Origin: Methanosphaera sp. BMS
GTDB lineage: Archaea > Methanobacteriota > Methanobacteria > Methanobacteriales > Methanobacteriaceae
DNA: 64,000 bases
Direction: 5' to 3'
Assembly (NCBI RefSeq): GCF_003268005.1
Contig: NZ_CP014213.1
Location: 1,860,001-1,924,000 of the forward strand
The first letter of the stretch is position 1. Every line of letters begins with the position of its first letter. The position numbers were made by a program, and so were the translations under genes. This document shows positions 18,661 through 40,806 of this stretch, piece by piece. The notes under the pieces were generated by a model that saw only the letters and a program-made list of their open reading frames with translations, ran no database searches and was not told where the DNA came from.

Positions 18661-19597
18661 TAACCTATCCCCTGCTTTTATAAACTTGGATATTTTCCAA
18701 AATATTCATCCACAATTTCCTTTTTATCATGATATATATTAGAATACATCGAAATAATACACAATCTTCCATGATTGAGTTTTTGATTTTAAAGGAGGTA
18801 TTTTTAAGTGTTTTTATAAATTATTTGGTTTTTTTTTTATTCTATTGTTAATTCGATAATGTCGACCATCGCCGAATGAATAATTTATGGAAAAAATTAT
18901 AATTTAACAATATATATTATAATTTACAAATTATTTAAAAATTTTTAGGGATAAAAAAGAAACACGGCAAAAAATAGGATTGATTTTGATTTTTTTATGG
19001 AGTTTATTTTTTGAGATTGTGGGGATAAAAGAGTTATGAAGCAAATCAGAAATAAGAATCATAAAAGAATATGAAAATGAATTAGCAAAAAATCATAGAA
19101 AAAAATGGAAACCCAAAGTACAAGAAGAATACAAAAAAGATCACCTATAGAACCATCATTTATGTTTGCCATTCTTATTTATTGTGCTTTACGTCATGTT
19201 GATGGAACTGATAAATTTACTGAAATGGTGGAGCATCATCAGAATTCTCTTGTGTTATATGCTATTTGAAAAATATTTATTACAGGACATTCTTAAAACT
19301 TATTTCATGAATATAATACGTATGTATCCTCATGTTTTTAAATACAAAAAATGGCATTAATTTATGAAAATAGAGTTAATTTTAAGTCTGAATTATAATA
19401 CTGCATTTTACATAATTTTATTGTCATCCAAATAAAACCTAATATAAATTTAGATAAAAATAATGGAGAAATCTAAAATTATCAAACAAATAAAAGTGTT
19501 ACAATAATAGAAAAAAGAGAACTTATGCCAACACTCAATCCATCAAAAAATTATTTTTGTAACTTTCCACATATATTATTATATTGGAGATTATATT
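18661..19597. other. 937-bp gene-poor region containing transposase debris
   Basis: The first 370 bp are AT-rich, with no coding signal apart from what may be the promoter of the phosphodiesterase gene. A decayed transposase fills about 19040-19360 (listed separately). The rest, to thpR, is plain AT-rich DNA with a TATA-like run near 19573-19584. Confidence 0.45.
19040..19360 (+). pseudogene. Decayed transposase N-terminal fragment
   Basis: Three frames join into one plausible protein. 19040-19150 reads IIKEYENELAKNHRKKWKP and KVQEEYKKDHL before a stop. 19144-19269 reads PIEPSFMFAILIYCALRHVD, then GTDKFTEMVEHHQNSLVL. The third piece, to 19360, reads EKYLLQDILKTYF and MYPHVFKYKKWH. The basic HRKKWKP part followed by EPSFMFAIL and a GTDKFTEMVEH segment is typical of the N-terminal region of DDE transposases. 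At least two frameshifts and no catalytic remainder mean it is dead. It is unlike the other transposases in this window. Confidence 0.5.
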
Positions 19598-20777: not shown

Positions 20778-21356
20778 ATGATGTTTTTTGACATTACACC
20801 AGATGATGAGTTTTATAAATGTGAAAATGTTCCTGGTCCAACAAAAGAGGAAATACGGGCATTAGTAATTAGTAAGGTATGTTTAACTGATGAGGATGTT
20901 GTTGTTGATGTTGGATGTGGAACCGGTGGTTTAACATTGGAATTTGCTAAAAGAGCTAGAAAAGTATACAGTATCGACATAAATAGTGATGCAATAAAAA
21001 CAACCAGAAAAAACTTGGAAAAATTCGGATTAGAAAATAAGGTAGAAATACTGGAAGAGGAAGGATTATCTGCAATTGACCGCATTGAAGACTTTACGAA
21101 ATTAATGATTGGTGGAAGTGGCGGTAATCTTAAAAATATTATAGAGACAGGTTATCTTAAGTTACCTGTCGGTGGAAAGATAATTATTACCTCCATCGTT
21201 CTTGAAACAGCTACTGAAAGTGTTGAAATGTTAAAAGAATTAGGAGCCAACCCTGAAGTTGTAAATATAAACGTTTCAAGAGGTACCATCCTAGATCGTG
21301 GAGTGATGATGAAAGCATTAAATCCTATAACCATTGTCAGTGCAAGAAAAGAATAA
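20778..21356 (+). CDS. cbiT: Cobalt-precorrin-6B C15-methyltransferase (decarboxylating) CbiT
   Basis: The 192-residue protein has the CbiT start, FYKCENVPGPTKEEIRAL, then motif I VVVDVGCGTGGLTLEFA near residues 40-56 and YSIDINSDAI as the SAM-ribose strand. MIGGSGGNLKNII near 110-122 and LPVGGKIIITSIVLE are also present. Archaeal CbiT methylates C15 and decarboxylates C12 of the corrin ring. Together with cbiD at 0.9 kb it shows the anaerobic cobamide route is encoded. The GGAGGG site upstream fixes the ATG at 20778. Confidence 0.93.
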   Translation: MMFFDITPDDEFYKCENVPGPTKEEIRALVISKVCLTDEDVVVDVGCGTGGLTLEFAKRARKVYSIDINSDAIKTTRKNLEKFGLENKVEILEEEGLSAIDRIEDFTKLMIGGSGGNLKNIIETGYLKLPVGGKIIITSIVLETATESVEMLKELGANPEVVNINVSRGTILDRGVMMKALNPITIVSARKE

Positions 21357-21472
21357 AATCATTTCCACTTCTATATTTTTTTTATACAAATCCTATTTTT
21401 TTAAACGAATTTTATTATTGGATTTGAATGAATCCATATTGGATTGAATAAAGCAAATACCCTTTTAACAAG

Positions 21473-22843
21473 GTGATTATTATATATGATGAAATATTAG
21501 CCGACATTAAGCCTACTATTGAACAAAGAAAGAGAATCCTAAAGTTTAGTGATAATCTGATGAATATCATACTAGAATATGCCAAAGAATTAAATCTTGA
21601 CGTTGAATGCAGGCTTGTCGGGTCAATGGCCAAAAAAACCTCACTCAAATCAAAGGCGGACATAGACATATTCATGACATTTCCACTGGAGTACAGCGAA
21701 GAAAAGCTGAAGGAATACGGTTTGCTGTTAGGTGAATATTGTATAGATAAAGCAGGCGGCAAAGCTGAAAAAAGATATGCATCACACCCCTATATGACCG
21801 GCCTTATAGAAGAATTTGAAATAGACTTTGTGCCGTGCTATAGAATCAGTGATTCAAGCCAGCTTAAGTCGGCGGTTGACAGGACGATACTGCATACCGA
21901 TTACATTCAGTCACATATGAGCGACGGGCAAGCGGATGAAGTGCTGCTTCTCAAAAAGTTCATGAGTGCAATAAACACCTACGGCGCCAATTACAAGGTA
22001 AGCGGTTTTTCAGGATACCTGTGCGAACTGCTGATACTGGAATATGACAGCTTTGAAAACGTGCTGAAGAATGCATCCGAGTGGAGGTTGCATCAAGAGA
22101 TTGACCTGGAAAACTACGGCACATGCAAAAACTTCAAGGACGCATTAATAGCAATAGATCCTACAGACAAAAACAGGAATGTGGCGGCTGCGTTGACCAT
22201 GCAGAAATTCTCGGAATTTATCGTCGCTTCAAGAAACTACCTTAAAAATCCATCACCGGAATACTTCAAGGACAGAAAGGTCAAAACAGACAGGATTGAA
22301 CTGATAAATGAATTCAATGATAGAAATACCACCTGTCTAATGCTGTCATTCAATATGCCCCAGCTACCGACAGACGTAATATATCCGCAGGTCAACAAGA
22401 CATGCAATTCACTGGAGAAAATATCAAACAGCCATGACTTTAAGGTATTGAAGGCAAAATACTACATCGACGACAATAATAGAGCCCATATCCTGATTGA
22501 ATATGAAGTTGCGACATTATCCAAGCTGAAACTGCATTATGGTCCTTTGGTGACGGATGTCAAAAACACCGAAAACTTCATAGCCAGACATCCCGATTGC
22601 TATGTTAAAGACAAGAAATGGGTCGTATTGAAAAATAGAAAGTATACCCACAGCATAGAACTGTTGGAAGACATGCTAAAAGAAGAAAATATGCACATGC
22701 TGAAGCTTGGAAAAAATGCAAAAGAAGAGCTGTTGAAAGAATATGAACTGGAATATATCAACGACTACATAAATGATATGGATGAAAGCGAATTTATGGA
22801 TATTTATACCTTTTTACATCCAAATTACAGGTTAATCAGATAA
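21473..22843 (+). CDS. cca: Archaeal (class I) CCA-adding enzyme
   Basis: The 456-residue protein shows the nucleotidyltransferase signature VGSMAKKTSLKSKADIDIF near residues 44-62 (G-S followed by D-x-D metal ligands). Archaeal features follow, such as the KRYASHPYMTGL and FEIDFVPCYRI stretch and LLKKFMSAINTYGANYKVSGF-like elements. It adds or repairs the 3' CCA of tRNAs. Start choice is awkward: GTG at 21473 is the only in-frame initiator before residue 31. An AAGGTG site with an ATGATG downstream (21486) points to a different frame that stops after four codons. Confidence 0.9.
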   Translation: MIIIYDEILADIKPTIEQRKRILKFSDNLMNIILEYAKELNLDVECRLVGSMAKKTSLKSKADIDIFMTFPLEYSEEKLKEYGLLLGEYCIDKAGGKAEKRYASHPYMTGLIEEFEIDFVPCYRISDSSQLKSAVDRTILHTDYIQSHMSDGQADEVLLLKKFMSAINTYGANYKVSGFSGYLCELLILEYDSFENVLKNASEWRLHQEIDLENYGTCKNFKDALIAIDPTDKNRNVAAALTMQKFSEFIVASRNYLKNPSPEYFKDRKVKTDRIELINEFNDRNTTCLMLSFNMPQLPTDVIYPQVNKTCNSLEKISNSHDFKVLKAKYYIDDNNRAHILIEYEVATLSKLKLHYGPLVTDVKNTENFIARHPDCYVKDKKWVVLKNRKYTHSIELLEDMLKEENMHMLKLGKNAKEELLKEYELEYINDYINDMDESEFMDIYTFLHPNYRLIR

Positions 22844-22858
22844 TCCCCCATTTCAACC

Positions 22859-23144
22859 CTTTTTGTGCAACAAGCAATTGTCTTTAATTTTGATCACACA
22901 TTATATTCTTTCTTTATTTGGATTTTTGTTAGTCTGACATCAATTTGAACGGATACAATTAACCTTGTTGAATGGGTTATTCACCCTTGAAACTGCGTTA
23001 CTGGTAACAGCAGCAGGTTGCATGATAGGTAAAGCCTAATCTTACTCCCAACATCCATGAAGTGGTAGGCAAGAAAAAGACCAATATTGACTAATGTTAA
23101 ATGAGGATAGAATGTGAGAGCAACCTTTCTAACTTATCCGACCA
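22859..23144 (+). repeat. Long direct repeat R1, candidate structured RNA
   Basis: About 286 bp match R2 at 36389-36674 with roughly ten mismatches and no gaps; R2 lies 13,530 bp further on. Conserved self-complementary parts include GGGT/ACCC at 22974-22986, an 8-bp stem with one bulge at 22993-23013 (CTGCGTTA/TAACaGCAG), the long-range pair AGGTTGC/GCAACCT (23015-23021 with 23120-23126), and inside it GCCTA/TAGGC (23034-23038 with 23066-23070). No start-bearing reading frame explains the conservation. Its function is unknown. Strand is assigned arbitrarily. Confidence 0.85.
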
Positions 23145-23187
23145 TATAACCATATCCTCCCCCACATAAAGGACTATTAATAATAGC

Positions 23188-23540
23188 TAAATTTATATGC
23201 CATTCAATATTTTCTCCCATCACTTCGCTATATTTTCATATAATGAAAAAACATAGCCACTTAAAACACGTTTTTAATCCAACATACCTCACTTTTACAA
23301 CATCATTTCATTATAAAAATAATTTCACGAACAAATACTAAACCAGGCAAAAAAGAAGTTACTAGCAAAAAAAATATATGGATATTATATGAATATAAAG
23401 GTTACCTAATAATTTGCCCCTTATTTCATTTTTAACCTAATAAAATCCACTATAATAAAATATACCATATCTTTTCCTTCAAATCCAAATATAAAACCTA
23501 ATAAAAAAATATACAAAACAAGCAAAATAATCAATTCTAA
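23188..23540 (+). promoter_or_regulatory. ALP1 upstream region, copy P1 of a duplicated leader
   Basis: This segment aligns with 28069-28201 joined to 29920-30080. The shared landmarks are TTTCATATAATGAAAAAACA, TAGCCACTTAAAACAC, a CAAAAAAAATA stretch and TTTTAACCTAATAAAATCCA. Both copies precede adhesin-like genes, so it probably holds promoter or leader functions; no transcription start can be fixed. The copy here is uninterrupted, whereas the other is split by an insertion sequence. Confidence 0.55.
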
Positions 23541-23857
23541 AAATAATAACGAGTAATACTTCAATTAAATCAATAAAATTGTATAAATTAATAAGCATAT
23601 AACTCTATAAAAGCATACATTTAATATATCAAATTATAAAAAATATACATGATAATAAAGTACACTTGAACATACATAAAATTTTACAAAGTATACTATA
23701 ATACATGGATTGATAAAAATAATGCATTAATAAATCTACTAATAAACTAGTACTACAATAATTCAATACAAATCCAATCCTCATTAATTTCAAAGATAGA
23801 TTCATTTTAAACTTTATTATCAAAAAGAAATTGATTTATAAAATAGGAGGAAAAATT

Positions 23858-26800
23858 ATGAACAATAATGTAAAAATATTGTTTTCTGTACTTGCACTAT
23901 TAATGATAGTATTTGCTGTATCAAGTGTTAGTGCAGTTGAAGATAATGACTGCACTATAGAAAAAAGTAGTGATAATCAGAATATAGAAATTGAAAAAAG
24001 TAATCAGAATATGAAAACTGATAAAGAAGTTAAAACTTCTTCTAAAACAATAGTTCTTAACAGTACTAATTTCAATAATTACGTTACTGATAAGCAGTTT
24101 AATGAAAATGTATCCGATGGAGATACCATAGATATTCAAGGAAAATTAGATGGCTCTAAGTTTTCTTTAGACATTGCAAAACCAGTGAACATTATCTCTT
24201 CCAATAATGCATACATCAATCTTCATACAGGAGAATATCTTAATTATGGTGAAAGTGAAAGAGGTATACTTAGAATATTATCAACGGGTGCTGGTACAAA
24301 CATCACAGGAATACAATTACACAACACACGATTATCCATAGAAAATACACGTGATGTTACAATCAACAACATTTCATGTATTGATGAAAATGCAGCCATA
24401 GGACAAAATGTAGGAGCAGTAAGCATACGTGAAGGATCAGAAAACATCACCATAACTAACAGTTACTTCAAAACTCTAGATAATGGCGGACACAGCAATG
24501 TAGTATTTGCAGTAGCATACAACTGTCTATTTGAAAACAATACTATTGAAGGTTATTGTAATGGGCATACAATTGGTATTGGAAACTTATTATATTTAAC
24601 AACATTTAATGTAGATACAACAAATATTATACCACACAATGTGAATATAACAATCAGAAACAATATTATCAAGTCATATAATGTGTCAACAGATTTAAAT
24701 ATTTGTTGGGCGTTAGTACTTGAAGGATATGGACACGTTATAGAAAATAATATAATTAATCATTCCAATGTGGCAGTTACAGGTCAATATAGTGACCCAG
24801 AATATGGATCAGAAACAGAACTGGGTGAAATGAGATTTACCAACAATACAATCTATGGTGGAACATCTGGTCTAGCTTTCCCAGGAATTGTTGCAAACAA
24901 TACATTTTATGATACAGCAGGAATATCCAAAGCTGAATGTTCAAATAATAGATTCACCGATGTTAATATAGGTAGCAATATATATTTCCATGATAATACT
25001 GCAAACCATCTTAAAATAATCGAAGATAACAATACCGTTGACAATAATACATTCTTCACAGACAAGGAATATGCAATCACAATACTAGGAGAAAACAATA
25101 CGGTATCAAATAATTCAATTGGAAGTATTAATGGAAGAGGAGAAGCCGCAATAAACAATACAACCAATTATATAAATATCAACAATGATAAACCAGCAAT
25201 ATTCGTTATTACGGGTGAAAATAAAGACGCATATGTTGAACCTATCACAAACCCTAGGGGAATAATTACAGGTTATTCATTAAAAGATAATAAATTTATC
25301 GATAACGACTCATTAATATTAAATGTTACTGTTGCTGATATATCTCCAAATCGAATTTCAGACCCTTACAATTATTATGGAGATATTACATTAAATCTAT
25401 TAAATTCAAGCGGTATCGTATTTAATGTGACAAATACAAGGGTAATCAATTCACAAGTAGCTGCATATGTAAATATTGAAGCATACAATTCTTTTATTAG
25501 TGGTTGTGGGAATGTAATTTATAGTGAAAATTCATATATATATGATAAAGGGATATGTCCTAATGAAAATCAAGTTTTATTATATAATAAAAACATAAGA
25601 ACGCTTGCTAATGAAAATATTCAAGAAAATCAGGAATTAATAATAATCAAACAGTATAATACTCCTCTCAATATAACAATACCAGTAAACATCACAGGAA
25701 AATATCAAGAAACAAACATCAGTACTTTTACTAATAATGTGACTTTTAATGAAGGCTCTCAAAATACCAATGTTACAAATTGTTCTTTCGCACCTGCAAA
25801 AAGTATCAGAACAATTAAAATAAATACAGATGAGCTTTCATTTAGCAATTGTTTATTTTTAAATTCAACAGTAATAATTAACGGAAATAATATTAACTTC
25901 ACAAACTGTACATTTGACAAAGAATTAACATTAAACGACACTAGTTCAATCAACATCATAAACTGTACATTCAATACTCAAAACACACCAATTACCGTTT
26001 ACAACTCAGCAAGAATAACCATAGAAAACAACACTATCAACACAACATCCCCCAATACAATAATCTTCGATGAAGACTCCGATAAAAACACAAATAGTGT
26101 AAAAAACAATACACTTATAACCTCATCATATTTAGGTAATGATAATGTTGTTGCACAGACTAAAATAAAAGTTCAGGACAACATACCACGATACCCTACC
26201 GAAATACAAGTAGAATATCCTCAAATAATGTTCAAGGATGAAACAGCAACAATAAATGTGTCAGTATACAATACATTCAACAACACACTTGTCGATAGTG
26301 GTTTCATAGAAGCATACATTGACGGAATGTACTTAATAAACAACACACTAACAAACGGAATAACCTCATTTAACCTTTCATATCCAATAAACAACAAAAC
26401 ACTACCATTAAAAATATGGTACTATGACACCAACAACAAATACGAAGACAATGTACAACGAGTTAACATAACATTTACCAAAACAAATGTAACAATAGAA
26501 GTAGAAGATTTCACCGCAAAACTGAATGAATATGCCACGATAACAGCAACATTCAAAGATGAAAGAAACAACCCCCTACAAGAGGGCAATGCAACATTCA
26601 CAATATCCAACCTCAAATACAAAACAGAAATAACAAATGGAATAGCCACAATAACAGAAAAAGTAACAGAAGAATGGTTAGACAAAAACACCTTCACAAT
26701 AACAGTAACCGAAACAGATTATAACCTACAAACACAAACAAAATTCCCACTCAACACACAAAAGGGTGATGTGATAATAAACAAAACAGCATTAACAAAC

Positions 26801-27931
26801 AATGAAACAATAACACTAAACTTAAGCATTAAAAATGTTCTGGATGAAAACATAAATGAAGGAACAATAACAATTACAGACGAAAACAACAACCCACTAA
26901 ACCAAACAAATGTAGAAAATGGAATCGTGTCAATCAAGTTCCAACTACCAGAAAATTCAAATAGAAACATAAACATCAACTATGATAATGCAGAATACTA
27001 CTCAACCACTACAAAAGAATTATACATACCTCAACAAACACAACTAACAATAACAGCAACTGAAAAAGTGCTTGTAAACAAAACAACACCAATAACAATC
27101 ACATTAACGGATGAAAACAACCAACCAATAGCAAACCAAGAAATAACTGTGACAATAAACGACGAAAACCAAACAGTCAACACCAATGAAAATGGCGAAT
27201 ATAACTATATTTTCTCATCAAACCAAACCGGTGATACAACAATCACGGCAAAATACGATGAAACAGAACAATACTTTGAATCAGAAGATAGTATAACAAT
27301 AAAAGTCATAGAAATAAAACTAATAATAGATCCTATAAATTCACAAGCAGAAGAAACAATCAACATAACCGCAAGAATCCTAGCAAACGATGAAACATAC
27401 ACATCCATCAATTCAGGAAAAGTAACATTCAAAGTCAACGGTAAAACACTAAAAGACACAAACGGCAAAGTAATCTACGCTAAAGTAGTAGGCGGAGTAG
27501 CAACAATAGAAAACTACATAGTACCAGCCGACTGGACTAAAAATGGCACAACAATAGAAGCAATATACACAGGATCCACACAATACGACAAACTAACAAG
27601 CGAAAAAACAGAGATAACAGTTACACCAAAAGAACTAACACTCACCACAGAAAATGTAACCACAACCTCTGGTAACACAACCACACTCACAGCAACATTC
27701 AACGACAACACAATAAACACAGGTAAAGTAATATTCAAAGTAAACGGTAAAACACTTAAAGACACAAACGGTAAAGTCATATATGCCAAAGTAGTTAACG
27801 GTCAGGTAACTGTAAATTACACCATACCTGAAAGCATGAAGGTAGGTAACTACACAATAACTGCAGTTTACACTTCACCTAACAGTGAAAAAGTAACTTC
27901 AGAGGCAACAATGACCGTTGTAAAAGCTTAA
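23858..27931 (+). CDS. Adhesin-like protein ALP1 (beta-helix plus Ig-like repeats)
   Basis: The AGGAGG site at 23845-23850 selects the ATG at 23858, giving 1357 residues. The signal peptide is about residues 1-27 (VLALLMIVFAVSSVSA). An acidic, Asn-rich leader contains KTIVLNSTNFNNYVTD, also found in ALP2 and ALP4. Residues about 110-780 are short N-x-T/N-N-I repeats typical of right-handed parallel beta-helices (NosD/pectate-lyase-like). Residues about 800-1357 form Ig-like modules, the last two with FKVNGKTLKDTNGKVIYAKV. Many N-x-S/T sequons suggest glycosylation. No membrane anchor follows. Residues from about 875 on are identical to ALP2 except for one Thr/Ile change. Confidence 0.9.
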   Translation: MNNNVKILFSVLALLMIVFAVSSVSAVEDNDCTIEKSSDNQNIEIEKSNQNMKTDKEVKTSSKTIVLNSTNFNNYVTDKQFNENVSDGDTIDIQGKLDGSKFSLDIAKPVNIISSNNAYINLHTGEYLNYGESERGILRILSTGAGTNITGIQLHNTRLSIENTRDVTINNISCIDENAAIGQNVGAVSIREGSENITITNSYFKTLDNGGHSNVVFAVAYNCLFENNTIEGYCNGHTIGIGNLLYLTTFNVDTTNIIPHNVNITIRNNIIKSYNVSTDLNICWALVLEGYGHVIENNIINHSNVAVTGQYSDPEYGSETELGEMRFTNNTIYGGTSGLAFPGIVANNTFYDTAGISKAECSNNRFTDVNIGSNIYFHDNTANHLKIIEDNNTVDNNTFFTDKEYAITILGENNTVSNNSIGSINGRGEAAINNTTNYININNDKPAIFVITGENKDAYVEPITNPRGIITGYSLKDNKFIDNDSLILNVTVADISPNRISDPYNYYGDITLNLLNSSGIVFNVTNTRVINSQVAAYVNIEAYNSFISGCGNVIYSENSYIYDKGICPNENQVLLYNKNIRTLANENIQENQELIIIKQYNTPLNITIPVNITGKYQETNISTFTNNVTFNEGSQNTNVTNCSFAPAKSIRTIKINTDELSFSNCLFLNSTVIINGNNINFTNCTFDKELTLNDTSSINIINCTFNTQNTPITVYNSARITIENNTINTTSPNTIIFDEDSDKNTNSVKNNTLITSSYLGNDNVVAQTKIKVQDNIPRYPTEIQVEYPQIMFKDETATINVSVYNTFNNTLVDSGFIEAYIDGMYLINNTLTNGITSFNLSYPINNKTLPLKIWYYDTNNKYEDNVQRVNITFTKTNVTIEVEDFTAKLNEYATITATFKDERNNPLQEGNATFTISNLKYKTEITNGIATITEKVTEEWLDKNTFTITVTETDYNLQTQTKFPLNTQKGDVIINKTALTNNETITLNLSIKNVLDENINEGTITITDENNNPLNQTNVENGIVSIKFQLPENSNRNININYDNAEYYSTTTKELYIPQQTQLTITATEKVLVNKTTPITITLTDENNQPIANQEITVTINDENQTVNTNENGEYNYIFSSNQTGDTTITAKYDETEQYFESEDSITIKVIEIKLIIDPINSQAEETINITARILANDETYTSINSGKVTFKVNGKTLKDTNGKVIYAKVVGGVATIENYIVPADWTKNGTTIEAIYTGSTQYDKLTSEKTEITVTPKELTLTTENVTTTSGNTTTLTATFNDNTINTGKVIFKVNGKTLKDTNGKVIYAKVVNGQVTVNYTIPESMKVGNYTITAVYTSPNSEKVTSEATMTVVKA

Positions 27932-28010
27932 TAATTAATAAATTACAAGTAAAACAATTAATTAAACCTTAAAAAAATAGGATGGAAGTTTTCATAACTA
28001 TTCCATCACT
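26481..28010 (+). repeat. 1.53-kb near-identical tract, ALP1 copy
   Basis: This tract, covering the last 483 codons of ALP1 plus 79 bp after its stop, matches 34852-36381 with only a couple of substitutions (around 26633-26640). Upstream of it the two genes are clearly homologous but diverged at many positions. The sharp boundary points to recent gene conversion or recombination rather than whole-gene duplication. Confidence 0.9.
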
Positions 28011-28020
28011 ATTTTATTCT
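27981..28020 (+). terminator. Hairpin and T-rich tract after ALP1
   Basis: GATGGAA (27981-27987) pairs with TTCCATC (28001-28007), followed by ATTTTATTCTCTCTTTTT. The same hairpin follows ALP2 at 36352-36378. It lies 50 nt past the ALP1 stop and is the likely transcript end. Confidence 0.6.
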
Positions 28021-28068
28021 CTCTTTTTATATAACAATATCATCTCCTAACACAAATATTAAAAGTAA

Positions 28069-28201
28069 CTAAATTTTATACCATTAAATATTTTTCACCA
28101 CTCCCTATACTTTCATATAATGAAAAAACATAGCCACTTAAAACACATTTTAATCCAATATATCAGTTTTTACAACAGACATCCACTTACCAAAAAAAAT
28201 A
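28069..28201 (+). promoter_or_regulatory. Duplicated ALP leader P2, left part
   Basis: This is homologous to 23188-23380 upstream of ALP1, sharing TTTCATATAATGAAAAAACA and TAGCCACTTAAAACAC. The insertion sequence interrupts it at a run of eight A residues. Confidence 0.55.
28192..28201. repeat. Target-site duplication, left
   Basis: AAAAAAAATA occurs directly before the left inverted repeat and again directly after the right one (29910-29919), a 10-bp duplication as expected for IS4-type insertion. Confidence 0.75.
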
Positions 28202-29909
28202 CAATGCTGTCAACTTAGTGAGTTATTAATTTTTTAGTCTATTTTTATTTTAAATTATTATTTTATTTTTATTTTTGTTATTTTTATTATTTTTTCTTTA
28301 TTTTAAATAATTAGTGCTTTGTTTATTTTAATAGTATTTATTGTAACTGTTTATTATTTTAATCTTATTTTTAATTATTAATTATGGTTATATTTATATA
28401 TTAGTAGTTATATATTTATTATTAGTGAATATGATTTCTATATTTTTTTAATTTAAGTTGTAGTTTTATCATGTTCATTTTTATTTGAATTTATAGTATT
28501 TATGGTGTTTGTTTATGAATTTCATGGTTGAGGTTGAGAATTCTATTTGTAGGATTGAGGATTATAATGATTATAAGTATTGGTATGGGCGTAAAACTTT
28601 TACTCGGGTTCGTAAATGGAGTTTTATGGATTATGTGATTTTTATTTTAGTTAATAAAGGTCGTAGTAGTGTTATTGAGATTGAAGAGTATGTTGAAGAA
28701 CGTTGGGGTGATGCATCTAAAATTATTTCTAAGCAGGCTTTATCAAAGCAACGACTCTTAATTAAACCTAAAATCTTTAAGGATATGAATATTGACTTTA
28801 TTAAGGATGTATTTAATAGTTCTGAATTTGAGCATGATTTTGAAGAGTATCTGTATTATTAGTTGATGGTTCTGATTTTCAATTACCTAATATTAAAATT
28901 ACTAAAGAAGAATTTAATGTTGCACCTGATACTATTGTTTATCCCAATCACCGAGTGTTAAAGCTTCTATGTTAATAGATGCTAAATATAACCTTGTAGT
29001 TGATGTAATTTTAGGTGATTATAAATCTAATGAACGAGAATTAGTTAAACAACATATATACAATATTGAAGAAAAAATTAACTTAGAAAAAACATTAGTA
29101 ATCTTTGATAGAGGTTATATATCACTTGAATTAATGTTATTCCTTGAAAACAAAGGTATTAAATATTTATTCAGATCCAATGGAAGATACTATCAAAATG
29201 AAATATTAGCTATGAAATCTCGTGATGAAACAGTACAATTAGAAATTAATTCTAATAGAACTCAAAATATCAAAGATAAAAACATTAAAAAACAAGCATT
29301 AAATATGGAATATTATCAAACAAGAATAAGTAAACCTATATTAGACAATGGAGTTACAGAAATACTATTTACTAACCTATCTGAAGCAGAAGCTGACATT
29401 CACAAACTCAAAGAATTATACAAAATGAGGTGGGAAATCGAATTAAATTATGAAAAAATCAAAAATAAATTACGAATAGAAAATTTTTCTGGAAAAAGAA
29501 GAACTATAATTGAACAAGACTTCTATTCACAAATATATCTCTTTAATTTACAAATGGCAATACAGAACAAAGCACAAAAAGAACTAGAACAAGAAAATAA
29601 AGAATTACGAGAAAAATCAGATAAAGAAAAACGATCAAACACCAATTTGGGAATTGGACGTCTCAAAAATAATTTAATCAAGATGGTATTAAAGCCATTA
29701 ACAGAAATTAAAATAAGATTGAAGAATTTAATAGGTAAAGCAGTGAAATTCACCACGGATCATAAATTCAACAGACCTTCAACAAACAGAAAAATCAAAC
29801 GACGAGTAAAATACCCTTATAATCTAAGAAGAAGCTTTTAATCAAAAAAAAATTTTCTAGAAAAAATAATATCAAACAACACGAATCAAAAATTAAGTTG
29901 ACAGCATTG
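28202..29909 (+). mobile_element. IS4-type insertion sequence, 1708 bp
   Basis: The ends are perfect 16-bp inverted repeats, CAATGCTGTCAACTTA (28202-28217) and TAAGTTGACAGCATTG (29894-29909). They are flanked by 10-bp direct duplications of AAAAAAAATA. The single transposase gene is broken by two frameshifts. The element sits in the middle of the P2 leader; the uninterrupted relative at 23188-23540 still shows the target sequence CAAAAAAAATA. Ends and target duplication look fresh, so insertion was recent, but the element cannot move by itself unless the shifts are sequencing errors. Confidence 0.88.
28515..29841 (+). pseudogene. IS4-family DDE transposase with two frameshifts
   Basis: An N-terminal frame runs from ATG 28515 to a TAG at 28860-28862. 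A middle frame then reads SVLLVDGSDFQLPNIKITKE (first catalytic Asp in DGSDF), and a third frame resumes near 28955 with PSVKASMLIDAKYNL and continues to 29841. The third part carries LVIFDRGYISLELM (second Asp) and the Y-(2)-R-(3)-E-(6)-K signature, seen as YKMRWEIELNYEKIK (catalytic Glu), then NFSGKRRTIIEQDFY. The shifts lie near 28850 and 28950. Joined, the protein would be about 440 residues, normal for IS4 transposases. Confidence 0.85.
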
Positions 29910-29919
29910 AAAAAAAATA
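29910..29919. repeat. Target-site duplication, right
   Basis: AAAAAAAATA repeats the left flank at 28192-28201 exactly. Confidence 0.75.
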
Positions 29920-30080
29920 TGAAAAAAATTAAAAAGTGGATAAAATTCACTGTATATGAAGTTAACCCAATAATTCCTCTTTATATTATTTTAACCTAAT
30001 AAAATCCAACCTAATAAAAAATACTCGCCTTCCTTTTAACCCAATTAAGAACCCCAATACAAATAATATATAAAAAAAAT
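29920..30080 (+). promoter_or_regulatory. Duplicated ALP leader P2, right part
   Basis: This continues the homology to the ALP1 leader (23380-23540), including TTTTAACCTAATAAAATCCA and a following CCTAATAAAAAA stretch. It now lies about 590 bp from the short ALP. Confidence 0.5.
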
Positions 30081-30666
30081 CGATTAAAACAAATATAAAA
30101 GATAAATCATATTCCAACCAAATGAAAACTAAAAATTAATGGTTTATAATAAGATTTAAGATAGTAAGAATAAGAGGGGTTCATTAAAAAACATTTTAGA
30201 ACCAGAAGAAACTATCCCTAAATTATTCACATAAATATTATGGACAGAAAAAAAATATTCCATGTCCTTTAATTCAGAGTACTACCGCATATCTTTTTGT
30301 AATCATCATCCTGCCCATTTATCAATAATGATACTACATATCCTAAATGATATGTTTTTAATAATATAAAATAAATCTTATTAATCAATATAATTTTTAA
30401 TATAATGAAGTAAATATTAATATAACTGATAGACATAATATTAATTACCTTAATAAATTACAAAAAAAATTAACTTGACCATAAAAAATAAACAGTTTAG
30501 TAATAAATAAAGAATATAAATTTTATTTATTGAGACAATTTAAAATTCAGTAAACCCATTGAAACGGATTTTTGTAGTTGATTAAGATTAATGGTTAAAT
30601 GACATTATATGAAACAATTTATACTTTTGAATAAAATGATTGTTTTTTTTATGGAGGTTGATATTT

Positions 30667-32247
30667 ATGAAAAATATCAATAAACTTTTCCTATTATCAA
30701 TAATTTTCTTCCTAGCAGTAGGGGCAGTTTCAGCTACCGAAGTGGATGATACAACTGTTGATGTTTCAGATATAGAATCTGTTGATACACCTCAAATAAT
30801 TGAAACTACAAATACTGTTTCAAACGTTGATAATACTGAATTAAATGAATTAAATACGGAAGAAGAAACACAAAGTTGTACAGGAAGAACATACAGCAAT
30901 CCAATATCCATTACTCCAAACAATTACCAGAACGATATTGGTAATATTTATGATTATGACGCTGTAGAATTTTCTGGAACATTTACCAGTACATTAACAG
31001 GTGGTAGTATAAGTATAACATCACCTATAGTCTTTACATCAATCTCAGGAGCAACATTTGAAGATACTCAATTTGTCATAAACTCAGATGATGTAACTAT
31101 AAAAAACTTAATAATTGAAAATGATAATAATGCATATGGTGCAGCAATAACTGCAACAGGTTATGATAATGTTGAAGTAATAAACAATACTATTACAGTA
31201 ACAAAAACTACCACACAAGAAACATTTGGAATAAAAATATCAAATTCCAATAATACGACAGTATGTAAAAATATAGTAAATGTTTCAGCAGTACCACAAT
31301 CCATGGGATGGGATAATTCAACAGGTGAATGGCTTGGAGCAGTACAAGTTAGTGGAATATTATACAGTAATGTTAACAATAGTAGAATAAACTGTAATAC
31401 TGTAACGGTGAATGATTCATCGAGTTTCACTCCTTTTGCATGGTCAACAGCTGATGGAATAACTGTAAAAGGCGGTTCTGAAAATACAACTGTAAAAAAT
31501 AACAATGTGAACGTTACGGGATCTGAATACAATTATGGTATATCATTAAGTGAATTTGTAAAAAATATAACTGTATATAATAACACTATCACTATGGAAA
31601 CTATCAATCAACTATGTGGTATACAATTATCCGCAGGAACAGATTCAACAATTAAAGGAAATAAAATATATGGAAACTGTACAACGATAACTAATACAAC
31701 AGCAAGTTATGAAGCCTTTTCCTATGGAATAGTAGTTTCAACTGCAACATATGGAGCAAGTAGTAGTGAATCTTATAATATATACATTGAAGATAATGAA
31801 ATAACATTAAACTCAACTATTGCATATGGTATTGAATTAAATAATGTGGAAGAGACTTACGTAACCAATAACACTGTAAATGTAACAGGCAATGTAGTCA
31901 TGGCTCTTGGAATATACAATTCATCTGACATTAGTATAACTGATAACACATTTTATTCAACTGGTGATACAATAACATTAAGTGATTATATATACGATGC
32001 AATATATCCTGAAACAACAGGAATAAAAATCAATGAAACATCAGAGAATATATTAATCTATGGAAATTATATCGATGTTACAGAAAACAATAATAGTATA
32101 ATATCATATGCAGTAATATTAGATGATTGTAATAATTCTGATATTACTTACAATACTTTATATGTTAATGGAGATACAACTACACCATTCTACTATGATG
32201 ATTTTGTATTAGATAATGGAACTGGAAATACTATATTTAATCCGTGA
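30667..32247 (+). CDS. Short adhesin-like protein, beta-helix only
   Basis: The ATG at 30667 follows ATGGAGGTTG and gives 526 residues. A signal peptide (LSIIFFLAVGAVSA) is followed by an acidic threonine-rich leader and a right-handed beta-helix region with NNTI, NNTV and DNTF turns from about residue 90 to the end. It lacks the Ig-like modules and the NGKTLKD...GKVIYAKV ending present in the other ALPs. It resembles the N-terminal half of ALP3 (both have a W-containing stretch near SMGWDNSTGEWLGAVQVSGI). Its stop lies only 5 nt before the ALP2 ATG. It may be a truncated ALP or a distinct short form. Confidence 0.85.
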   Translation: MKNINKLFLLSIIFFLAVGAVSATEVDDTTVDVSDIESVDTPQIIETTNTVSNVDNTELNELNTEEETQSCTGRTYSNPISITPNNYQNDIGNIYDYDAVEFSGTFTSTLTGGSISITSPIVFTSISGATFEDTQFVINSDDVTIKNLIIENDNNAYGAAITATGYDNVEVINNTITVTKTTTQETFGIKISNSNNTTVCKNIVNVSAVPQSMGWDNSTGEWLGAVQVSGILYSNVNNSRINCNTVTVNDSSSFTPFAWSTADGITVKGGSENTTVKNNNVNVTGSEYNYGISLSEFVKNITVYNNTITMETINQLCGIQLSAGTDSTIKGNKIYGNCTTITNTTASYEAFSYGIVVSTATYGASSSESYNIYIEDNEITLNSTIAYGIELNNVEETYVTNNTVNVTGNVVMALGIYNSSDISITDNTFYSTGDTITLSDYIYDAIYPETTGIKINETSENILIYGNYIDVTENNNSIISYAVILDDCNNSDITYNTLYVNGDTTTPFYYDDFVLDNGTGNTIFNP

Positions 32248-32252
32248 TTAAA

Positions 32253-35200
32253 ATGAAATTAAAAAATATTTTCTTTTTCTTTTTTATTTTTTGTTTAATT
32301 ATTTCTTTAACTTCCATAAATGCTATGGAAGAAAACAACATTATTGAAAAATCAAGCGATACACAAATAAATGTTGAAAAAGATACACAAATAATAACAA
32401 CTAATAAAGAAGTCAAAAATTCCCCAAAAACTATAGTTCTAAACAGTGGTAATTTTAAAGAATATGTAACTGACAATAAATTTAATGATAATGTATCTAA
32501 TGGAGATACTATTGATATTGATGGTAAACTAGATAGTTATAAGTTCAATTTAACTATTGATAAAGCTGTGAACTTAATTTCTTCAAAAAATAATTCATAT
32601 ATTAATTTATATTCATCTTCCAATCCTGGAGAACATAATGGTGCTTTGAAAATTATTAAAGAAGGTTCAGGAACTAACATTACAGGATTATATTTTTATA
32701 ATACACATATTAGACTTGAAAATACTACTAATGTACAAATAGATAATATTACATTTATTAATGAAAATCAAAGTATCGGTTATGGAGTTGGTGCTGTTTC
32801 TGTCCGCGATGGATCAGAAAATATCACTATAACTAATAGTTATTTTAAAACTTCATTTAATGGTGGTCATAGTAATGTAGTGTTTGCGGTTGCATATAAT
32901 TGTCTCTTCGAAAATAACACTATTGAAGGATATGGTAATTCTATTGGAAATTTATTATACTTAACAACATATAATGTTGATGAAACTATTACTCCATATA
33001 CTAACATTAATATCACAATTCGAAATAATAATATAAGAACTATCAATACATCTAAAGATACAGCTATATGTGTAGGGATGGTATTAGAAGGTAGAGGACA
33101 CGTTATTGAAAACAACATTATTAATCGTACAGGTACAGCAGTAATGTCACAATACAGTGATCCTGATTACGGAACAGTTACTGAAGTTGATGAAATAACA
33201 TTTATTAATAATACCATTTATGGAGGTACATCTAGCCTAGGATTCCCTGGTATTGTAGCAAACAATTCTTTTGATTCACTTGTAGGATTATCAAAAGTGG
33301 AATGTTCAAATAATATTTTTACAAATGTTCGTATTGACCATGATGTAAACTTCCATGACAATATCGCCAATATACTACAAATTGTAGGTAATAATAGTAC
33401 TATCGACAATAATACAGTCTTCACAGATAAAGAATACGCAATCACTATAACAGGAGAAAACAATACAATATCAAATAATTCAATTGGAAGTTTAAATGGA
33501 AAAGGAGTTAATGCTATAAATAATTCCACAATTTATACAAATATAAATAATGATAAACCAGCAATCTTTGTTTTAACAAGCGAAAATAAAGATACATATC
33601 TTGATCAGGTTTTAAATCCTAGAGGTATGTTGATAGGATACTCTTTTAAAGATAATTTATTTAATGAGAATGATATGATAATATTTAATGTTACCCTTTC
33701 TGATATAAAAAATAATAAAATTTCAGATATAAATAATTATTATGATAATCTTACATTAACTTTATTAAATTCTTCTAATTTAGCATTTAATGTAACAAGT
33801 TTAAGAGTTATAAATTGTATATATGTAGGTAATACTAAGAATATTGAAACATACAATTCAATTGTTAATGGTGGAAATGTAACCTATTATGAAAATTCAT
33901 ATATTACTCATGAAAATATTGGTATTAAACCTAACCAACTTATATTAGCTGGTAAAAATATACAAACATTAATAAATGAACAGATTACTGAAGAAACAGA
34001 AGTAATAATGATTTCACATAATCAAATTCTCAATGTTACAATACCTGTAAACATCACTGGAATCTACAAAAGATTGGAATCTTTAGGTGTATCTACTTTT
34101 GCTAGAAATGTATCATTTAATGAAGGTTCAGAATATACAAATGTAACAAATTGTTCATTTGTAGACAATGGTAGAATTCATCCAAGTGTTAACATTAACA
34201 CAAATGATATTACTTTTAAAGATTGTTTATTTAATGCAACAGTAAAAATTAATGCAAGTAATATTAACATCATAAACTGTACTTTTTACCAAGAATTAAC
34301 AATAAACGATACAAGTTCAATCAACATCATAAACTGTACATTCAATACTCAAAACACACCAATAACTATTTACAACTCTGCGAGAATAACCATAGAAAAC
34401 AACACTATCAACACAACATCCCCCAATACAATAATCTTCGATGAAGACTCTGACAAAACCACAAATAGTGTAAAAAACAATCAATTAATCACAACATCCT
34501 ACTTAGGTAATGATAATGTCATTGCCCCAACAAAAGTTAAAGTTGAAGATAACATACCATTATATCCTATCGAAATACAGGTAGAATATCCTGAGAAAAT
34601 GTTTAAAGATGAGCTTGTAACAATAAATGTTTCAGTTAATAACCTAATTAATGATACACCAGTAAATAGTGGTTTTATAGAAGCATATTTTGATGGAATA
34701 TATTTAACAAATAATACATTAACAAGTGGAATGACATCATTTAGCTTCTCATATACAGAAAACAACGAAACAATTCCATTAAGAATATGGTATTATGATG
34801 CAAACAATAAATATGAAGAAAACAACACAAAATTAAACATTAATTTCGTAAAAACAAATGTAACAATAGAAGTAGAAGATTTCACCGCAAAACTGAATGA
34901 ATATGCCACGATAACAGCAACATTCAAAGATGAAAGAAACAACCCCCTACAAGAGGGCAATGCAACATTCACAATATCCAACCTCAAATACAAAACAGAA
35001 ATAATAAACGGAATAGCCACAATAACAGAAAAAGTAACAGAAGAATGGTTAGACAAAAACACCTTCACAATAACAGTAACCGAAACAGATTATAACCTAC
35101 AAACACAAACAAAATTCCCACTCAACACACAAAAGGGTGATGTGATAATAAACAAAACAGCATTAACAAACAATGAAACAATAACACTAAACTTAAGCAT

Positions 35201-36302
35201 TAAAAATGTTCTGGATGAAAACATAAATGAAGGAACAATAACAATTACAGACGAAAACAACAACCCACTAAACCAAACAAATGTAGAAAATGGAATCGTG
35301 TCAATCAAGTTCCAACTACCAGAAAATTCAAATAGAAACATAAACATCAACTATGATAATGCAGAATACTACTCAACCACTACAAAAGAATTATACATAC
35401 CTCAACAAACACAACTAACAATAACAGCAACTGAAAAAGTGCTTGTAAACAAAACAACACCAATAACAATCACATTAACGGATGAAAACAACCAACCAAT
35501 AGCAAACCAAGAAATAACTGTGACAATAAACGACGAAAACCAAACAGTCAACACCAATGAAAATGGCGAATATAACTATATTTTCTCATCAAACCAAACC
35601 GGTGATACAACAATCACGGCAAAATACGATGAAACAGAACAATACTTTGAATCAGAAGATAGTATAACAATAAAAGTCATAGAAATAAAACTAATAATAG
35701 ATCCTATAAATTCACAAGCAGAAGAAACAATCAACATAACCGCAAGAATCCTAGCAAACGATGAAACATACACATCCATCAATTCAGGAAAAGTAACATT
35801 CAAAGTCAACGGTAAAACACTAAAAGACACAAACGGCAAAGTAATCTACGCTAAAGTAGTAGGCGGAGTAGCAACAATAGAAAACTACATAGTACCAGCC
35901 GACTGGACTAAAAATGGCACAACAATAGAAGCAATATACACAGGATCCACACAATACGACAAACTAACAAGCGAAAAAACAGAGATAACAGTTACACCAA
36001 AAGAACTAACACTCACCACAGAAAATGTAACCACAACCTCTGGTAACACAACCACACTCACAGCAACATTCAACGACAACACAATAAACACAGGTAAAGT
36101 AATATTCAAAGTAAACGGTAAAACACTTAAAGACACAAACGGTAAAGTCATATATGCCAAAGTAGTTAACGGTCAGGTAACTGTAAATTACACCATACCT
36201 GAAAGCATGAAGGTAGGTAACTACACAATAACTGCAGTTTACACTTCACCTAACAGTGAAAAAGTAACTTCAGAGGCAACAATGACCGTTGTAAAAGCTT
36301 AA
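32253..36302 (+). CDS. Adhesin-like protein ALP2 (beta-helix plus Ig-like repeats)
   Basis: I choose the ATG at 32253 (1349 residues); a GTG at 32244 overlaps the preceding stop. No ribosome site is visible, so translation may depend on the upstream gene. The signal peptide is a very hydrophobic stretch of Phe and Ile (IFCLIISLTSINA). The same KTIVLNSGNFKEYVTD leader, beta-helix and Ig-like order as ALP1 follow. Residues up to about 866 are clearly related to ALP1 but diverged; residues about 867-1349 are identical except Ile for Thr in KTEIINGIATI. It is surface-exposed by inference, and no transmembrane anchor is seen. Confidence 0.9.
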   Translation: MKLKNIFFFFFIFCLIISLTSINAMEENNIIEKSSDTQINVEKDTQIITTNKEVKNSPKTIVLNSGNFKEYVTDNKFNDNVSNGDTIDIDGKLDSYKFNLTIDKAVNLISSKNNSYINLYSSSNPGEHNGALKIIKEGSGTNITGLYFYNTHIRLENTTNVQIDNITFINENQSIGYGVGAVSVRDGSENITITNSYFKTSFNGGHSNVVFAVAYNCLFENNTIEGYGNSIGNLLYLTTYNVDETITPYTNINITIRNNNIRTINTSKDTAICVGMVLEGRGHVIENNIINRTGTAVMSQYSDPDYGTVTEVDEITFINNTIYGGTSSLGFPGIVANNSFDSLVGLSKVECSNNIFTNVRIDHDVNFHDNIANILQIVGNNSTIDNNTVFTDKEYAITITGENNTISNNSIGSLNGKGVNAINNSTIYTNINNDKPAIFVLTSENKDTYLDQVLNPRGMLIGYSFKDNLFNENDMIIFNVTLSDIKNNKISDINNYYDNLTLTLLNSSNLAFNVTSLRVINCIYVGNTKNIETYNSIVNGGNVTYYENSYITHENIGIKPNQLILAGKNIQTLINEQITEETEVIMISHNQILNVTIPVNITGIYKRLESLGVSTFARNVSFNEGSEYTNVTNCSFVDNGRIHPSVNINTNDITFKDCLFNATVKINASNINIINCTFYQELTINDTSSINIINCTFNTQNTPITIYNSARITIENNTINTTSPNTIIFDEDSDKTTNSVKNNQLITTSYLGNDNVIAPTKVKVEDNIPLYPIEIQVEYPEKMFKDELVTINVSVNNLINDTPVNSGFIEAYFDGIYLTNNTLTSGMTSFSFSYTENNETIPLRIWYYDANNKYEENNTKLNINFVKTNVTIEVEDFTAKLNEYATITATFKDERNNPLQEGNATFTISNLKYKTEIINGIATITEKVTEEWLDKNTFTITVTETDYNLQTQTKFPLNTQKGDVIINKTALTNNETITLNLSIKNVLDENINEGTITITDENNNPLNQTNVENGIVSIKFQLPENSNRNININYDNAEYYSTTTKELYIPQQTQLTITATEKVLVNKTTPITITLTDENNQPIANQEITVTINDENQTVNTNENGEYNYIFSSNQTGDTTITAKYDETEQYFESEDSITIKVIEIKLIIDPINSQAEETINITARILANDETYTSINSGKVTFKVNGKTLKDTNGKVIYAKVVGGVATIENYIVPADWTKNGTTIEAIYTGSTQYDKLTSEKTEITVTPKELTLTTENVTTTSGNTTTLTATFNDNTINTGKVIFKVNGKTLKDTNGKVIYAKVVNGQVTVNYTIPESMKVGNYTITAVYTSPNSEKVTSEATMTVVKA

Positions 36303-36381
36303 TAATTAATAAATTACAAGTAAAACAATTAATTAAACCTTAAAAAAATAGGATGGAAGTTTTCATAACTATTCCATCACT
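34852..36381 (+). repeat. 1.53-kb near-identical tract, ALP2 copy
   Basis: This is the partner of 26481-28010, offset by exactly 8371 bp with no gaps. It covers the Ig-like half of ALP2 and the 79 bp after its stop, and ends 7 bp before the R2 repeat. Confidence 0.9.
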
Positions 36382-36392
36382 TTTTACTCTTT
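36352..36392 (+). terminator. Hairpin and T-rich tract after ALP2
   Basis: GATGGAA (36352-36358) pairs with TTCCATC (36372-36378), followed by ACTTTTTACTCTTTTT. It is the copy of the ALP1 terminator and runs directly into R2. Confidence 0.6.
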
Positions 36393-36674
36393 TTGTGCAA
36401 CAAGCAATTGTCTTTAATTTTGATCACAGCTTAGATTCTTTCTTTATTTGGATTTTTGTTAGTCTGACATCAATTTGAACGGATACAATTAACCTTGTTG
36501 AATGGGTTATTCACCCTTGAAACTGAGTTACTGGTAACAGCAGCAGGTTGCATGATAGGTAAAGCCTAATCTTACTCCCAACATCCATGAAGTGGTAGGC
36601 AAGAAAAAGACCAATATTGGCCCAGGTTAAATGAGGATAGAATGTGAGAGCAACCTTTCTAACTTATCAGACCT
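36389..36674 (+). repeat. Long direct repeat R2, candidate structured RNA
   Basis: It is the second copy of the 286-bp repeat, in the same orientation as R1. The pairs AGGTTGC/GCAACCT (36545-36551 with 36650-36656) and GCCTA/TAGGC (36564-36568 with 36596-36600) are kept; one base of the CTGCGTTA stem is changed (C to A at 36526). Mismatches cluster at two short spots, 36429-36434 and 36620-36626. It fills most of the 424-bp gap between ALP2 and priS. Confidence 0.85.
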
Positions 36675-36726
36675 ATTATTAATTAATTCGTCGACAACCA
36701 TTGAATTACATTAACAGCATCAGCGT

Positions 36727-37698
36727 TTATTTTCTTTCATATACAAACTTTGGAACGGCATCGTCAAATGGATCGAATTTTTCAATATTCTTTATCAGCG
36801 TCGACTTCATGCTGACCTTGGAATGAAGTGTGGATGGAAGCCTTAATATACGCTTTAAGTCAATTGAAACCTTAGTATCAGTAATGTCCATATTAACCCT
36901 GCTTACCGCCTTGATAAGTTTATTATATCTTATTGGACCAATATTTGCCCTGAATAACCCCCATTGATTCTCATCCAACAAATGCCTATTCTTAATTGTA
37001 TCATTAAGCAATTTCTTGTTTACATCATTCAACTGGTTATTTTTAGTTAAGTGATTGATGGTGTACTTTGACCATTTGGTGAAGTTTCTTGGATAGCCGT
37101 ATGGTATGATGAAGTGCTGAAGATTCTTATAGTCCATTGGATTTAATAATTCGAACGTCTTGGCACCTACAACATATTGCACTACCTGTCCCCTGATTTC
37201 ACTGGAGGAATCCATAACCTCCTCATCAAGTACCCTTACGTGATAGCCCCTACCTGAATAGACCAGGTTAATGTCCTTTAATCCCAAATCACCCTTCAGT
37301 ACATCCCTTATCATGAGCACTATTTCTTTTGCCTGATTTAAGCATTTGTCACATACCTGTCCTTCCTCACAGTCACATGTACGTATCGGTATATCCTTCG
37401 CATCCACATCAAATACCAATTCCGATTTTTTCCATCCCTGCCTTTTTTCAGGTTTTTCATAAAAGGCTACCGATACGTATGCTGCAAATGGATTTTTAAG
37501 TTTCATGAAACGTTTTAGTCTAGCCCTATCAATGAATGTTTTATAACGATCATTTGGTCCCTGTCCGTAATGATCAAAACCAAATTCCCTGCTAGGCAAG
37601 GAATCCATTATAAATGAGGGTACATCATCAATGTTCCATTCTTCCTTATAGAATAGTTTACGTTCATAGTTTGATGCAGGTTTTAACTCAATTTCCAT
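36727..37698 (-). CDS. priS: DNA primase small (catalytic) subunit PriS
   Basis: The 323-residue product shows the archaeo-eukaryotic primase core. REFGFDHYG lies near residues 37-45, the catalytic acidic motif VFDVDAKD near 94-101 (D-x-D), a zinc-binding-type [12 protein letters not shown] near 107-118, and [12 protein letters not shown] near 145-156 with the conserved SGRG-H. It makes RNA/DNA primers for replication in complex with PriL, encoded 62 nt upstream on the same strand. The length is typical of methanogen PriS. Confidence 0.93.
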
Positions 37699-39403: not shown

Positions 39404-40806
39404 ATAGGGTACTTGAATTAAGACCAATCAAATAATGTTTTTTGTTTGGTTTTTTGGTAATCTAAGAGTGTTTTTTGATTGGTTGTTTCAGGTACAGAAG
39501 AATTATTTCTTTTATCAGTTTCTTCGGTTTTCTTTTTTCTTCTGTGTTTTATAGGTGGTCTTCCTTCTATGTTTCCTTCTGATAATTGTTGCATTTTTGT
39601 TTTTGTCATGAATCCTTGTTGTATGCAGAGTGTTGTTAATAATATGCATAAATATATGCTTTTACTTACTGATTTTGTTGTATATTTATGGAATTTTCCC
39701 AATCCAAAGGCATCTTTGGCTACTTTAAAGAAATCTTCTATTAATCCTCTTATTGGTTTTAAATCTTCCCAATTTTCGATTTGTTTTATTAATATTGTTT
39801 TTAATGTTTTATATTCTTTTTTTGAGTTCTCATTATTATTTGAATTAAATACTTCGAGTGGATATGAAAGATTGTCTTTGATTTTTTGGATGGTGTTATC
39901 ATATTTTGGGGCTATTATTGGAACTATTTTATAGCGGTTGATTCCTATTTTATAATTTTCTAATGAGTAATATCATCTATCAAGATATAATAATGTTCGT
40001 TTAGTAAATAATCTTCTTCTTTTTAATTCTTTTAATACTTTTTTGTATATTACAGTGTCGTGTGGTGCTCCAGAGTGTATGAGAATGGATACAGGTGATA
40101 AAGTATCTTTATCTAGTACTACTGTTACTTTAAATCCAATATAATGTAGTTTTGTCTTTGAAAATCCCCATTTAAGGTTTAATTTCTCTAATTCCTCTTT
40201 TGTAATGTATTTTTTTATGGTATTTATATCTACATCTACAGGTGTTGCATCAATCAAATAGTGGCTTATAACTTTTTTATTAGGTTTATAAATTCTTGAA
40301 CATATGCTATTTGTTAAATTATTGAATATTTCCGGCCATATTTGCTAAAATATTCATAAAATTGTTGTTCATTAAAATTAGTGCTTATGTTAAAATGAGT
40401 TTTTAATTTTTCATTTCGATTGATTTCACGGATCATGTCGGAAATTGTATAATCAAAGTACATAGTCATTAGTATTATTTTTATACAATCTATCATCTTA
40501 TTGATATTATGTACATCATTTCTTGCTAATGATTGTTTAACATATTTTTCATCGAAATGTTTAAGTATTTTGTCTAACAAACATATTTTTGGGTCTTTTT
40601 TATCTAAATTTATACTAGGTTTCATCTGATCACAATATAATATATGTAAATCATAGTATTTATAATTTAGGGTTAAAATTGACCCTATTTTTATAATTTA
40701 ATAGTTAATTTTTTGTACCTAAAGTAATGACAACATATATATGTTGTAATTTATAAAAATAAGCTTAAAGAGTACTGTTTTAAAAATTATTTTTCAAGTA
40801 CCCTAT
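39404..40806 (-). mobile_element. Decayed insertion sequence of about 1.4 kb
   Basis: Perfect 14-bp inverted repeats mark the ends: ATAGGGTACTTGAA (39404-39417) and TTCAAGTACCCTAT (40793-40806). If the true ends are GGG and CCC (39407-40803, 1397 bp), the element is flanked by TA on both sides, compatible with TA-target insertion. The transposase inside is interrupted. It lies between priL and metG in non-coding DNA, so it disrupts no gene. It belongs to the same family as the debris at 8127-8850. Confidence 0.78.
39418..40625 (-). pseudogene. DDE transposase with one frameshift and one in-frame stop
   Basis: The N-terminal part (40625 to about 40314) is helical and basic, with TISDMIREINRNEKLKTHF and EQQFYEYFSKYG. 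One extra A near 40330 shifts the frame; the sequence resumes as IFNNLTNSICSRIY and reaches LIDATPVDVD (first catalytic Asp) and SGAPHDT. An in-frame TGA at 39970-39972 then interrupts a DRxYYS motif where most relatives have DRGYYS, consistent with a GGA to TGA change. The remainder (IRGLIEDFFKVAKDAFG, then a basic Thr/Lys-rich tail) runs to 39418. Inactive as it stands. Confidence 0.8.

Follow-up and report, generated by a model that had tools for sequence, protein, structure and literature searches.

The chromosome of the methane-producing gut archaeon Methanosphaera sp. BMS carries a block of adhesin genes between two core genes, cca and priS, and a pair of near-identical direct repeats lies exactly at the borders of this block. 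The question raised by this arrangement is whether the repeats are the working ends of a removable unit, or whether they came to bracket the adhesins in some other way. Recombination between them, as an initial annotation had proposed, would excise the block as a circle and leave a single repeat between cca and priS. We address the question within a window of 64,000 nucleotides of contig NZ_CP014213.1, to which all coordinates refer, and in the genomes of related strains.

The block and its borders

The left repeat, R1 (22859-23144), and the right repeat, R2 (36389-36674), agree at 276 of 286 positions in an ungapped alignment, in direct orientation and at an offset of 13,530 bp (BLAST E = 7e-135), as the initial annotation had described. 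Its placement of the core borders also holds: cca, the CCA-adding enzyme (21473-22843, plus strand; Pfam PF09249, PF21133, PF01909), has its stop at 22843, and priS, the DNA primase small subunit (36727-37698, minus strand; PF01896), ends at 36727, both in agreement with Pfam. The DNA between the repeats is indeed surface and mobile in content, all of it on the plus strand. Behind R1 lies a leader region, X (23143-23860), followed by the adhesin-like protein ALP1 (23831-27931), with C-terminal Ig-like (Big_3_5) domains in Pfam, and by a homologue of the leader, X' (28029-28177). Next come an IS4-family transposase (28509-29841), a short ALP with beta-helix repeats (30640-32247; Pfam) and ALP2 (32244-36302; Pfam), which overlaps the end of the short ALP. 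The 3' half of ALP1 with its terminator hairpin (26480-28010) recurs almost unchanged as the 3' half of ALP2 (34851-36381), forming a direct repeat of 1,531 bp with 2 mismatches and an offset of 8,371 bp.

Pfam and other searches of the block found no integrase or recombinase of its own, the sole candidate being the IS4-family transposase, which is broken by frameshifts and stops. This gene is split over three frames, and full-length copies elsewhere in the genome share only ~30% identity with it. We rejected a tRNA-targeted island because no tRNA was found within the window. An assembly artefact is held to be unlikely, given that the genome is a single contig and that a second genome independently places the repeat beside priS and beside X. 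Scans for bacterial-style promoters and terminators performed near shuffle level and were left unused. Farther out, two inverted repeats of ~125 bp, with 81% identity to each other (19337-19460 and 40597-40723), flank the block on either side, and two more large ALPs nearby (47136-50387 and 50498-54775) have C-terminal Ig-like domains with 42-52% protein identity to those of ALP1 and ALP2.

Identity of the repeats

R1 gave 13 matches when used as the query in sequence searches of its own genome (2.868 Mb, one contig), and at three of them the first 246 and last 41 bases of the repeat lie ~2 kb apart, at the two ends of an intact group II intron. These three introns, ~2.29 kb long and ~98% alike, encode a 514-aa reverse transcriptase/maturase (RVT_1, RVT_N, GIIM, TIGR04416) and carry domains V-VI (RF00029). 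Aligned to an intact copy of 2,292 bp, the repeat (R) is a 278-bp internal-deletion relic in which intron positions 1-236 are fused to positions 2252-2292 (a 5' portion of ~236 nt and a 3' portion of 41 nt), the deletion having taken out both domain V and the reverse transcriptase gene. The relic proper occupies 22865-23142 in R1 and, from alignment and inspection of the flanks, 36395-36672 in R2, both on the plus strand. Its termini are intron-like: R begins with GTGCAAC where the intact copies begin with GTGCGAC (GUGYG-type), and its copies end in ..CTTATCCGAC or ..CTTATCAGAC, the intact introns in ..CTTATCCGAC. Domain V is absent from R, there being no RF00029 match in the block or at the R loci, and an Rfam scan of the whole block returned no RNA family, on which ground we rejected R as a known structured RNA. 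Because the sequence jumps from intron position 236 to 2252 and lacks domain V, R is a dead relic and not a functional intron.

Placement of the two copies follows that of their relatives. Wherever the 5' end of an intron or relic can be read, it follows a T-rich stretch, in most cases 15-126 bp downstream of a stop codon, and this pattern is fitted both by R1, which sits after CCCTTTTT, 21 bp beyond the cca stop, and by R2, which follows the T-tract of the ALP2 terminator (ACTCTTTTT). R-like sequence occurs at about eight further loci in the genome, and other relics, here and in related genomes, have different deletions; among all of these genomes the full R form with its deletion junction is confined to the cca-priS locus, in two species. 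The initial annotation had allowed that the bracketing would be accidental if R were found at many unrelated places. The bracketing is meaningful, but R is what remains of a mobile intron dispersed in the genome and not a dedicated border repeat. We rejected the idea that R is an active mobile unit, as it lacks domain V and is restricted to this one locus. A search of viral contigs for an exact 21-mer of R gave zero matches, and hence no hint of viral carriage. Elsewhere in the genus, three ORF-less group II introns (L041 and L042 in genome G010, L044 in G009) share an identical internal deletion joining intron position 788 to 2192 and keep domains V-VI, which suggests that short intron forms may be mobilised in trans.

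The cca-priS site in related genomes

Both genes lie on one contig in 17 other Methanosphaera genomes, and in 15 of these the gap between them is 5-50 bp, with no block and no R; it is ~2.0-2.2 kb in the other two, compared with 13.9 kb here. The same tail-to-tail arrangement of the two genes is also present in several further genera of the family. Given the short gap in 15 of 17 relatives, the block is a discrete, lineage-specific insertion. The products predicted by the initial annotation were missing. A single R between cca and priS occurs in none of 20 Methanosphaera genomes, the 17 with contiguous cca and priS included, no genome searched carries tandem or multiple blocks, and a scan of contigs found no further block-carrying strains of the two species.

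Two other species, represented by genomes G019 (L022:1865-3073) and G008 (L023:1699-3585), hold unrelated cargo in the same gap, an ABC1/UbiB-like kinase and a P-type ATPase, and the gap thus looks like a recurrent insertion point. In addition to their core priS, genomes G009 and G010 contain further priS-like genes at 51-55% identity, which may reside on mobile elements.

The second species with R is the nearest relative, Methanosphaera sp. rholeuAM130, available as a fragmented metagenome-assembled genome (G005) whose contigs break at R. One contig (C3) stops 13 bp beyond the cca coding match, another (C48) begins within R and adjoins priS, and a third (C181; 5,459 bp) begins and stops within R, with X, one short ALP and one ALP in between. 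The simplest order, cca-R-X-short ALP-ALP-R-priS, would make this a ~5.4-kb adhesin unit, although because the contigs break at R both this order and the R alleles at the contig ends are indirect. The unit matches the window at 23065-23862 (96%) and 35770-36413 (98%). The ends of the island are alike in the two species (X 96-98%, ALP 3' end 98-99%), whereas the N-terminal parts of the adhesins share only ~40% protein identity. Conserved ends around a replaced interior are the mark of a recombining adhesin cassette, and the interior of the island was replaced or resized between the species.

Footprints of recombination

Three footprints in the sequence point to recombination. The first is the junction between ALP1 and X' (28028|28029), which contains no intron and aligns seamlessly to an artificial join of the left flank of R2, within the ALP2 unit, to the right flank of R1. 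The score of this alignment is 307, against 34 for the best of 100 shuffles, 98 and 126 for the actual R loci and 0 for the outer join. X' starts where the intron would sit, and its homology begins at position 2 of the sequence after R1. Because ALP1|X' matches R2-left plus R1-right, the inner flanks of the two repeats are the two sides of one intron-free ALP|X site, as expected if a circle or tandem unit joined through R had entered cca|R|priS by crossover between R copies.

The second footprint lies in R itself. At about repeat positions 230-238 R1 reads GACTAATG and R2 reads GGCCCAGG, and in G005 these alleles are swapped, the copy beside priS being of R1 type and the copy beside X of R2 type. 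At another position both copies in the window genome have T and both copies in G005 have G. The R copies have thus undergone both exchange between positions and concerted evolution.

The third is a set of abrupt changes in DNA identity between the window genome and G005. Core genes are ~82% identical, rising to ~99% over 21.3-22.85 kb on the left; on the right, identity is ~99% over 36.5-36.84 kb outside the polymorphic R sites, which account for the mismatches in the R2 tail, and then falls to ~82%. A tract from 21250 to 36840 therefore has both ends ~99% identical to the sister species. Since the level switches inside or near core genes on both contigs, the island moved between the two species along with its core flanks. 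It travelled by recombination in the flanking core genes, and not visibly by R1/R2 excision.

Origin of the island

We consider it fairly probable that homologous recombination both assembled this adhesin island and was the means of its exchange. Under this explanation a group II intron would have inserted after T-tracts behind genes, one copy behind cca (cca|R|priS) and another behind an adhesin gene, where two adhesin units meet (ALP|R|X); today each copy is a 278-bp relic with the same deletion. Crossing over from one relic to the other, whether a circle carrying ALP|R|X integrated in Campbell fashion or an ectopic exchange had the equivalent effect, would have joined them to give cca|R1|X...ALP2|R2|priS. 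Recombination in cca and at the 3' end of priS would later have carried the island between these two species of Methanosphaera, and further exchanges involving the repeated adhesin 3' halves, the X leaders and the R copies would have replaced its interior or altered its size. The sequences themselves show that R is intron-derived, that the site is empty in relatives, that ALP1|X' lacks the intron, that R alleles were exchanged and that identity is mosaic; the order of events, the circular intermediate and any excision today are deductions. Against this history stands the lack of a cca-R-priS scar, free circle or tandem block in the genomes searched. The 52 bp between R2 and priS, moreover, are absent from the empty-site relatives, which leaves the cca|R|priS precursor a postulate.

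The same pair of repeats could have been reached by two separate T-tract insertions of the intron followed by gene conversion. In that case the adhesin array was in place at the cca-priS site beforehand, the intron inserted independently behind cca and behind ALP2, conversion made both copies the same relic, and the bracketing is a by-product of terminator targeting. The consistent position of introns and relics behind T-rich stretches and the observed concerted evolution of R are both in keeping with such a history, but it needs a coincidence for X homology to start within 1 bp of the R1 3' end, and the ALP1/ALP2 homology must end at the R2 5' end without resuming beyond R2. We regard it as unlikely, though the strongest of the competing accounts.

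Excision and regain of a 13.5-kb circle in the population today, with R1 and R2 as active borders, was the full model of the initial annotation. Repeats of 286 bp at 96.5% identity would in principle suffice for homologous recombination, and past exchange between R copies has left its footprints. In this sense, together with the empty site in 15 of 17 relatives, the idea of a discrete unit that recombines through R is partly sustained, while the predicted scar and tandem forms are missing, the scar even from the 17 relatives with contiguous cca and priS. A longer and more identical internal repeat would moreover yield an 8.4-kb deletion instead. From general knowledge of homologous recombination, the 1,531-bp ALP1/ALP2 repeat should outdo R1/R2 by both length and identity, and it, not R1/R2, would be the best substrate for a future deletion; such a deletion would leave ~5 kb with a single adhesin between the R copies, near the size of the sister unit. 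Present-day excision through R1/R2 may be one possibility among several, and the full model seems to us improbable. Finally, that R is a MITE-like intron derivative which jumped to both sites with help from intact introns is highly improbable, for in spite of the three ORF-less introns with one internal deletion in relatives, R lacks the domain V required for splicing and its form is found nowhere else in its own or relative genomes.

Significance and relation to known systems

Adhesin-like proteins are abundant in gut methanogens and are thought to determine their partners and hosts, and how these adhesin repertoires change is largely undescribed. The recombination history that we favour would make this locus a concrete route, in which dead intron copies and repeated adhesin ends supply the homology by which an adhesin island is built, swapped and passed on, and its sequence junctions are testable by PCR or reads. 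A far broader proposition is that group II introns homing to terminators lay down recombination sites behind adhesin genes throughout Methanosphaera, and that the archaea use these sites and the constant adhesin 3' halves as a permanent means of exchanging surface adhesins among loci and species; it is speculative and on balance doubtful. Our searches of the openly licensed literature turned up no report of methanogen adhesin islands flanked by intron relics.

A survey of prokaryotic group II introns places archaeal copies mainly in Halobacterota and describes the insertion of bacterial class C introns after terminators (PMC8919778). The introns described here resemble these terminator-targeting introns in their reverse transcriptase/maturase ORF, their domains V-VI and their insertion behind T-tracts downstream of genes; among solved structures, however, the intact copies are closest to the T. 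elongatus maturase (PDB 6me0) and not to GsI-IIC, and R, unlike the mobile class C introns, is a dead relic. A precedent for its persistence is the Sinorhizobium intron fragment FRE652, which has been proposed to have a role in recombination of surrounding loci (PMC5894124), whereas here two relic copies bracket an island and evidence from flanks and alleles backs exchange. Composite-transposon-like islands likewise place accessory genes between two directly repeated copies of a mobile element, but here we find no transposase-driven movement of the unit and infer homologous recombination instead. The adhesins themselves are like the adhesin-like proteins described from Methanosphaera and Methanobrevibacter (PMC11532034), with N-terminal beta-helix regions and C-terminal Big/ABD-type domains; the word "recombination" is absent from that account, and the present locus differs in combining near-identical 3' halves with exchanged N-terminal parts.
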